From the NCBI RefSeq assembly GCF_010747475.1, contig NZ_VSLZ01000005.1:1-64000 (forward strand): a stretch of DNA of 64,000 nt. Direction: 5' to 3'. Positions 39,247 through 57,310 of the stretch are shown in pieces. Every line of letters begins with the position of its first letter. Position 1 is the first letter of the stretch. A program made the translations under genes and the position numbers. The DNA comes from Halorussus sp. MSC15.2. Its GTDB lineage: Archaea > Halobacteriota > Halobacteria > Halobacteriales > Haladaptataceae. The notes beneath the pieces were generated by a model that worked only from the letters and a program-made list of their open reading frames with translations, was not told the origin of the DNA and did no database searches.

Positions 39247-39433
39247 GCTAGCTACTGCTTGAGCCACGGAGTCACCGCAACCGCACCGCGACAGCCTCAC
39301 ACCTCCCCAACCTCCTCGCTCACTTCGTTCGCTCGTCCCTCGCACGCCTCGGCGGACCACGCGGGTCCGCCGGAAGACAACCCGCGTCTTCCGAGCAATC
39401 GCGCCACGGCGCGATGACGCCAGCACGCGCCGA
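39247..39433 (+). repeat. intergenic repeat copy A with three hairpins, in gap 39090-39558
   Basis: The 469-base gap between the GH43-like gene and metY holds no gene. From about 39247 it carries module 1 of a repeat ('gctagctactgc' ... 'cctcctcgctcacttcgttc' ... 'cctcgcac') and then module 2: three adjacent perfect hairpins at 39351-39371 (8-base stem, 5-base loop), 39372-39392 (7-base stem, 7-base loop) and 39398-39415 (8-base stem, 2-base loop). A near copy lies at 48789-48986, and degenerate reverse copies of module 1 at 47974 and 57100. Confidence 0.8.
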
Positions 39434-47914: not shown

Positions 47915-47973
47915 CGCGCTATCGAATTTTCGGACCGGCGCGCGCTGCGCGACCCTCGTGTCGCGCCAATTCC

Positions 47974-48096
47974 GTGCGAGGGATGAGGACCGCAGGTCGG
48001 AGCGGAGCGAAGACCGAGGACCGCAATCGGTTGGGGAGGGTGTGGCCCGCTGTGGCGGTGCAGTCGCGGTATAATAGGCTCAAGCCTGTCGCTAGT
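47974..48096 (-). repeat. degenerate reverse copy C of the intergenic repeat, module 1 only
   Basis: The gap 47915-48207 holds, in reverse orientation, 'gtgcgaggga', 'ggttggggagg', 'ggcggtgcagtcgcggt' and a tail 'ggctcaagc...gctag', matching the reverse complement of module 1 of the copy at 39247. The three-hairpin module is missing. No gene is seen in this gap. Confidence 0.6.
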
Positions 48097-48788: not shown

Positions 48789-48986
48789 AGCTAGCCATTG
48801 CCGACACCGAGGAGTTACCGCGACCGCACGGCGCCGCACCGCGGCAGCCTCACGCCTCCCCAGCCTCCTCGCTCACTTCGTTCGCTCGTCCCTCGCACAG
48901 CGTTGGCGGACCACGAGGGTCCGCCGGAAGACAACCCGCGTCTTCCGAGCAATCGCGCCACGGCGCGATGACGCCAGTACGCGCCG
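48789..48986 (+). repeat. intergenic repeat copy B with three hairpins, in gap 48712-49074
   Basis: Module 1 runs from 'gctagccattgc' to 'cctcgcac' and module 2 from about 48905 to 48969 repeats the three hairpins of copy A with identical stems. Only the loop of the first hairpin differs (acgag for acgcg). Identical stems over about 65 bases with changes confined to flanks and a loop suggest selection or a recent copying event. No gene is seen in the gap. Confidence 0.8.
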
Positions 48987-56784: not shown

Positions 56785-57310
56785 GTCCGAGGGTGAGGAC
56801 CCGCGGGCAAAAGTTATTCCGGAGCGCGACGCGGTGAGGGAGTGGTTCACGGTCGGGAGATAGGCCCACCTCACCGGCGAAAATACCCCGCAATCGAGCG
56901 TGAATCGACGGTTTCCGAGGGCGGCGACCGGGAGAGTGAAATCGGTCTAACGTTTCCCGGAACGTCCGCCCGCACCCGGACCGCGCCGCCCGGGACTACC
57001 GACCGGTTCACTTCTCCGCAAACCTCGAATTACGCCGACCTCAGCAGACCCCGGGTTGCCCGACCTCCGCAAACCACGGGACGCGCCGCGAGCGCGGTCG
57101 TGCGCTCGCAAGCGGGGAGGCACGGGGCGCGGTCGCGGTGCCGTGTTGTCCGGTGCAGTTGCGGTCCGATTCGCTCAAACGGTAACTAGCCGTCCCGATA
57201 GAACGGTTCCGGTCGCGCGTTGGCGGTCGCCGCGGTCGTCAGGGGACTCGCCGAGTGGAGCGTCGGACGCAATCCGAACGTTTTCACTCCCCCGCGACGC
57301 CCGTTCGAGC
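56785..57310. other. 526-base intergenic region with repeat copy D and short tandem pattern
   Basis: No gene is seen. At 57100-57190 (reverse orientation) lies a degenerate copy of module 1 of the dispersed repeat: 'ggggagg', 'ggtgcagttgcggt', and the tail 'gctcaaacggtaactagc'. Just before it, 'ctccgca' or close variants recur at 57014, 57040 and 57065, a weak ~25-base tandem pattern. Confidence 0.5.

Follow-up and report, generated by a model that had tools for sequence, protein, structure and literature searches.

The stretch at positions 39247–39433 of the window (the whole 64,000 nucleotides of DNA analysed here) is one copy of a structured repeat family that is widespread and conserved in Halobacteria. 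We tentatively favour the reading that the family is an old intergenic mosaic repeat, carried mostly on chromosomes, that behaves like bacterial REP/BIME repeats and has a boundary role at the 3′ ends of genes that we infer. The repeat consists of short conserved boxes in a fixed order, with interchangeable hairpins between them and structure on one strand.

Architecture of the repeat

The window holds three copies, A to C, and a degenerate relative:

39247–39433, minus strand: copy A, whole element, from the left-end GCTAGC to the right-end CGGCGCGTGC box; the structured strand is the minus strand
39293–39345, minus strand: class-wide core of copy A, comprising the GCGAGGGA box, hairpin P2 and the GAGGTTGGGGAGG tract (model R1, 79 bits)
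39315–39335, minus strand: hairpin P2 of copy A, minus-strand sequence CGAGCGAACGAAGTGAGCGAG, with tandem G.A steps and a C(GAA)G loop
39351–39371, minus strand: hairpin P1 of copy A (hairpin 1 of the preliminary description), exact stem GGCGGACC/GGTCCGCC
39372–39392, minus strand: first hairpin of the optional cassette of copy A (hairpin 2 of that description), exact stem GGAAGAC/GTCTTCC
39398–39415, minus strand: second hairpin of the optional cassette of copy A (hairpin 3), exact stem ATCGCGCC/GGCGCGAT
48790–48986, minus strand: copy B, whole element, from alignment to copy A and R1
About 47936–48095, plus strand: copy C, diverged, weak in R1 (20.6 bits, E 0.007), and kept at the orthologous place in the sister genome G194
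57078–57190 (ends approximate), plus strand: degenerate relative with a GGGACGCGCC hairpin, GCGGGGAGG and an ACTAGC end, read from alignment and missed by R1

Copy A is non-coding, as the preliminary description had proposed: no predicted gene covers 39247–39433, and the flanking genes are a minus-strand GH43 gene (PF04616, predicted end 38895) and a plus-strand gene for a Cys/Met metabolism PLP enzyme (PF01053, predicted start 39559). The three perfect hairpins of that description are exact at the positions it gave, and copy B repeats their stems without change from 48905 on, differing by one base in the first loop. Its two-module element is indeed a repeat, but the three hairpins are not what is conserved: the second and third are optional, and the class-wide core lies in the module that precedes them (module 1). 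The conserved G.A/GNA hairpin at 39315–39335 within module 1, copy C and the degenerate relative near 57078–57190 had gone unnoticed.

Copy B is 95% identical to copy A over 153 bp (E 4e-63), a third copy (G000:C1:203261-203438) is 84% identical over the full length, and the copy A sequence matches 30 places in its own genome (E ≤ 0.001). In the covariance model R1 (53 positions; genome threshold E ≤ 0.01), copies A and B each score 79 bits with E about 5e-16 in the window, a score that for copy A arises partly by construction, as its 53-nt core is among the training sequences. The degenerate relative (GGGACGCGCC hairpin, AAGCGGGGAGGC) is a shorter subtype that resembles those in L016, L025 and L029.

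Aligned copies from this and other genomes share one design, read here on the minus strand of A and B. The boxes run from a right-end CGGCGCGYGC through P1, GCGYGAGGGA, P2, a purine-rich GAGGYTGGGGAGGYGTGAGG and a GCGGTTGCGGT-like stretch to the left-end module; in outline, the structured strand presents a variable hairpin P1, a GCGAGGGA box, the P2 hairpin and a conserved GAGGYTGGGGAGG tract. P1 and P2 differ wholly in sequence among many copies, with the hairpin retained, and the optional cassette (hairpins 2 and 3) sits between the right-end box and P1. The left-end module varies by genus: it is GTAGCTAGC in the genus of the window (g1 in our data is probably Halorussus), TGTTGCCACGATAG-like in two Natrinema copies, and GGGACTCAAAGGGGC..GGGGCTTTGG plus 57-bp tandem units in genus g7, which we take to be Halorubrum-like from recognising its sequences. 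Element length is about 150–190 bp in the window genome and about 350 bp in g7. At L148–L167 (g7), left ends hold one to several of the 57-bp units, each with TTTATAA and GGCTGGGGCTTTGGAGGTGTTC, in numbers that depend on the copy. A separate module, GGGACTGAAAGGGGC, a long hairpin and GGGGGCTTTC, stands alone beside one copy (L003, about 1735–1900) and forms the element's left end in other genera (also L200, L057 and L058). GTAG is confined to the left end in this genus, away from the hairpins, and GCTAGC is not exclusive to the element, most GCTAGC sites in 184 kb lying elsewhere.

Pairing and the folded strand

Covariation was counted for 33 copies over 24 pairs of P1 and P2, named by hand because differences in hairpin length made the raw alignment unsuited to RNAalifold; the structure was drawn from these same copies. 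Standard pairing occurs in 83.8% of cells compared with 72.1% after shuffling, and two-sided changes in 17 of the 24 pairs (93 two-sided cells vs. 34 expected); none of 500 shuffles attained the observed pairing, two-sided pairs or two-sided cells. When the partner was slid by 1–3 columns, pairing fell to 23–53%, a control that outweighs the shuffles, since these are related copies from which the structure itself was drawn, yet one that is itself favoured by that derivation. Among the simple P2 copies (n = 23), 22 contain a tandem GA/GA step and 20 a C(GNA)G loop, and the pair between step and loop is AT, CG or GC in 22.

Stem mismatches are asymmetric, with G.A exceeding T.C by 97:32 and G.U exceeding A.C by 46:22 (in stems detected regardless of G.U), which indicates that the selected fold belongs to one strand. 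RNA energies for P2 favour the structured strand; DNA energy parameters barely distinguish the two strands and, to our knowledge, do not model sheared G.A and GNA loops. The C(GNA)G motif, as in d(GCGAAGC), is reported to be extraordinarily stable in DNA (PMC4686876). Because this loop is exceptionally stable as a DNA mini-hairpin too, and the DNA parameters are uninformative, the folded molecule could be either DNA or RNA. The minimum-energy fold of the whole of copy A was no better than those of shuffled sequences.

Distribution, descent and exchange

A covariance search, as suggested in the preliminary description, returned many intergenic matches with compensatory stem changes in the window's own and in other haloarchaeal genomes. 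R1 found 25 copies in the window genome (E ≤ 0.01), at least 50 or nearly so in most g7 genomes, and matches in 70 of the 116 class genomes, spread over 26 of the 45 genera; some species have no copies or lack the entire family. In a sample of the phylum, 13 genomes had R1 matches, all in the window's own order; among the genomes listed or counted, none outside that order, and with it none outside the class, had a match. An exact 41-base pattern searched over 84,980 species matched in Halobacteria only (Natrinema, Halolamina, Natronorubrum, Haloterrigena, Halopiger, Halosimplex, Halococcus and two other archaea of the class). The 187-bp query had no match in a phage collection; a plasmid collection gave three Halorussus records. 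A search of the window and eight loci against Rfam (15) gave no relevant family at the gathering score, and we found no description of the family in the open-access literature on haloarchaeal intergenic repeats, MITEs, REPs and terminators, an absence that is no proof.

The sister genome G194 is about 94% identical to the window genome over shared stretches, and 20 of its 27 copies have an orthologous copy there. Over 18 orthologous pairs, identity is 94.8% in genes, 88.5–89.6% in element parts and 79.2% in the remaining spacer; gaps occupy 4% of the columns of core and left end, 15% of those of the hairpin part and 18% of those of spacer. The element exceeds the spacer in identity in 16 of the 18 pairs, though part of this edge could reflect gene conversion or alignment effects. 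Hairpins and cassette have been exchanged wholesale at orthologous sites: one of G000 and G194 has the cassette where the other lacks it, in both directions (L003/L242, L015/L260). At the place of the 57.1-kb relative, G194 carries a full copy of a different subtype in the same orientation. At one g7 site, species after species has a copy, of differing subtype and once inverted, and in G210 the site is just 46 bp long. The exchange of hairpins would be most simply explained by gene conversion or by recombination via the shared boxes. Copy A is missing from the metY spacer in most relatives of the genus, so gains or losses do happen. Orthologous spacers yielded neither clean insertion boundaries nor target duplications, because most of these spacers hold an element too or have diverged.

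The two genomes also differ in their content of GATC. It is nearly absent from 184 kb of the window genome (the window plus G000:C5:64001-184000), with 3 occurrences vs. about 650 expected by a Markov estimate; in G194 its depletion is only about sevenfold (154 in 280 kb), and CTAG is depleted in both. A strain-level difference in methylation or restriction is a possible cause of the GATC contrast.

These patterns bear on whether the repeat is a non-autonomous, PATE-like mobile element, moved on single-stranded DNA by an IS200/IS605-type Y1 transposase, with the hairpins as recognition sites and no host function. One-strand hairpins with C(GNA)G loops suit single-stranded DNA, copies A, B and C1:203261 resemble recent duplicates, copy A is absent from most genus members, no terminal inverted repeats are seen, and a closely similar GA/GNA mini-hairpin lies directly upstream of tnpA in haloarchaeal IS605-type elements (L229, L230, L233 and L237). 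In 30 Y1 loci searched with R1, this mini-hairpin alone is shared, in four loci; the likeness makes an ancient origin in single-strand transposition possible. However, element and Y1 transposase (PF01797) counts are uncorrelated (rho 0.006, a coarse test in which the genomes are related and the richest were counted as ≥50), several genomes with at least 38 copies have no Y1, one with ten Y1 has no element, sites are largely common to sister species and conserved above spacer, and all 27 G194 copies lie on its 3.6-Mb contig, with none on the other contigs, which make up about a quarter of the assembly. We rejected the Y1 transposase as driver, for want of correlation with element counts, and regard a purely mobile element as improbable. 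The mini-hairpin at the four IS605-type loci is GGAGCGACCGAAGGGAGCGG-like and lies within a longer stem, the P2 design.

Genomic context, proposed role and known systems

The neighbouring genes are our own calls, made on 464 kb from two genomes by a purpose-made gene finder based on codon usage, and not curated annotations. Of the 27 copies placed in the window genome, 14 are flanked by convergent genes, against 22 of 167 spacers of at least 150 bp (odds ratio 7.1, p 2e-5); for divergent genes the counts are 3 of 27 against 66 of 167 (p 0.004). In G194, 13 of 27 copies are convergent; among the 67 copies of a wider set, 29 are convergent and 8 divergent. In spacers between tandem genes, copies divide 18 to 12 between the two orientations, with no clear preference, and head-to-head pairs of copies occur at L193, L200, L202 and L184.

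Under the boundary reading, copies would have spread in the distant past through a process that works on single strands, and would now persist mainly by vertical descent, while recombination or gene conversion across the shared boxes would swap hairpins among them. Selection may then maintain the presence of a hairpin as such, the folded strand, whether read-through RNA or DNA extruded by supercoiling, serving at the 3′ ends of genes as a boundary that could curb read-through or keep supercoils from spreading from one facing gene to the other. Counting against this reading, copy A and the 57.1-kb relative lie between divergent genes and copies B and C between tandem genes, all outside the favoured context, copies in tandem contexts have no orientation bias, which is unexpected of a one-strand RNA role in 3′ UTRs, and some species live without copies or without the family.

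Another account would place the function in RNA only: a transcribed element, carried in read-through transcripts, that would determine where mRNAs end at the 3′ side or how stable they are, as a terminator or 3′-end protector and not as a boundary at the DNA level. Copies are positioned after gene 3′ ends, and both the excess of G.U over A.C in stems and the P2 RNA energies agree with it, as does hairpin-associated termination in Haloferax volcanii, where 503 of 1,543 termination sites are preceded by hairpins and a single hairpin put to the test ended 59% of transcripts (PMC7237163). Yet in Haloferax it is chiefly a T stretch that marks intergenic termination (PMC7237163), the whole-copy fold of copy A is unexceptional, and the 18 vs. 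12 split in tandem spacers does not favour the sense strand of the upstream gene. We consider this account unlikely. Least probable by far is a set of small-RNA genes, each independent and with a promoter to itself: the structure covaries and many g7 copies have TTTATAAAT 10–20 bases before the right end (47 overlapping TATA-like matches in that bin, 32 copies), but the 100-base upstream stretches of 44 copies of the window's genus contain one TATA-like string, far upstream, 15 copies of other genera have no box near the right end, the box persists without the element at one g7 site and so may be a neighbour's promoter, and no Rfam family matches. An own promoter was rejected for this genus, the 44 copies having no TATA-like box near the right end. 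As regards the interpretation in the preliminary description, the data support both a structured single strand and a dispersed palindromic repeat, and promoter search and orientation speak against a separate small-RNA gene in this genus.

Returning to the boundary reading, a bolder form of it is conceivable if doubtful: a class-wide, previously undescribed archaeal counterpart of the BIMEs without Y1/RAYT, forming a boundary of swappable hairpins whose single-strand fold, made of tandem G.A steps and C(GNA)G mini-hairpins, would have been under selection between genes that face each other for a large part of halobacterial history. Few non-coding repeats of bacteria are as well known as REP/BIME repeats, and the open-access papers searched contained no archaeal family (which again proves nothing by itself). 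If true, a whole archaeal class would carry tens of copies per genome of a selected structured element missing from Rfam 15, offering a handle on the separation of neighbouring archaeal transcription units and on how a repeat retains its fold despite sequence exchange.

Several known systems share features with the repeat. The PATEs and SMRs of Haloquadratum walsbyi are likewise short haloarchaeal repeats that lack a transposase, and PATEs have palindromes near their ends but neither terminal inverted repeats nor target duplications (PMC3119063). PATEs are linked to IS605-type transposons, whereas the element described here has no Y1 link and most of its sites are common to sister species; the comparison with HqIRS elements is by described traits. 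The GA-CC-GAA-GG-GA mini-hairpin upstream of tnpA in haloarchaeal IS200/IS605-type elements resembles P2, but the repeat contains no transposase gene and the IS elements lack the GCGAGGGA and GGGGAGG boxes. The terminal inverted repeats of MITEs were sought in the two ends, CGGCGCGYGC on the right and GTAGCTAGC on the left, which are not inverted copies. The apex of P2 is the same C(GNA)G as in the DNA mini-hairpin d(GCGAAGC); unlike that molecule, P2 is a natural genome-wide motif with additional tandem G.A steps, whether formed in DNA or RNA.

The closest parallel is with bacterial REP/BIME repeats, which are intergenic hairpins with G.T pairs, head-to-head pairs, a convergent or tandem bias and, in some families, no linked transposase (PMC3733652, PMC2817692). 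Three REP traits are absent here: no GTAG/GTGG or CGTC tag lies at the hairpin foot beside P1 or P2 in the alignments, the size exceeds the 20–40 bp of a REP unit, and a cognate RAYT (Y1) transposase is not indicated, with no PF01797 correlation and none in several element-rich genomes; in archaea, the IS200 subclass alone has been reported (PMC6006769). For these reasons we do not file the family as REP. Like the REP/BIME/REPIN repeats (GTAG and CGTC families), it nevertheless has many intergenic hairpin copies per genome, as imperfect palindromes outside genes (25 in the window genome, at least 50 elsewhere), with variable stems, G.T pairs, the alternating-orientation, head-to-head pairs typical of BIMEs and a bias to convergent spacers, and it differs from them in being larger, in its conserved single-stranded boxes between hairpins and in being archaeal.
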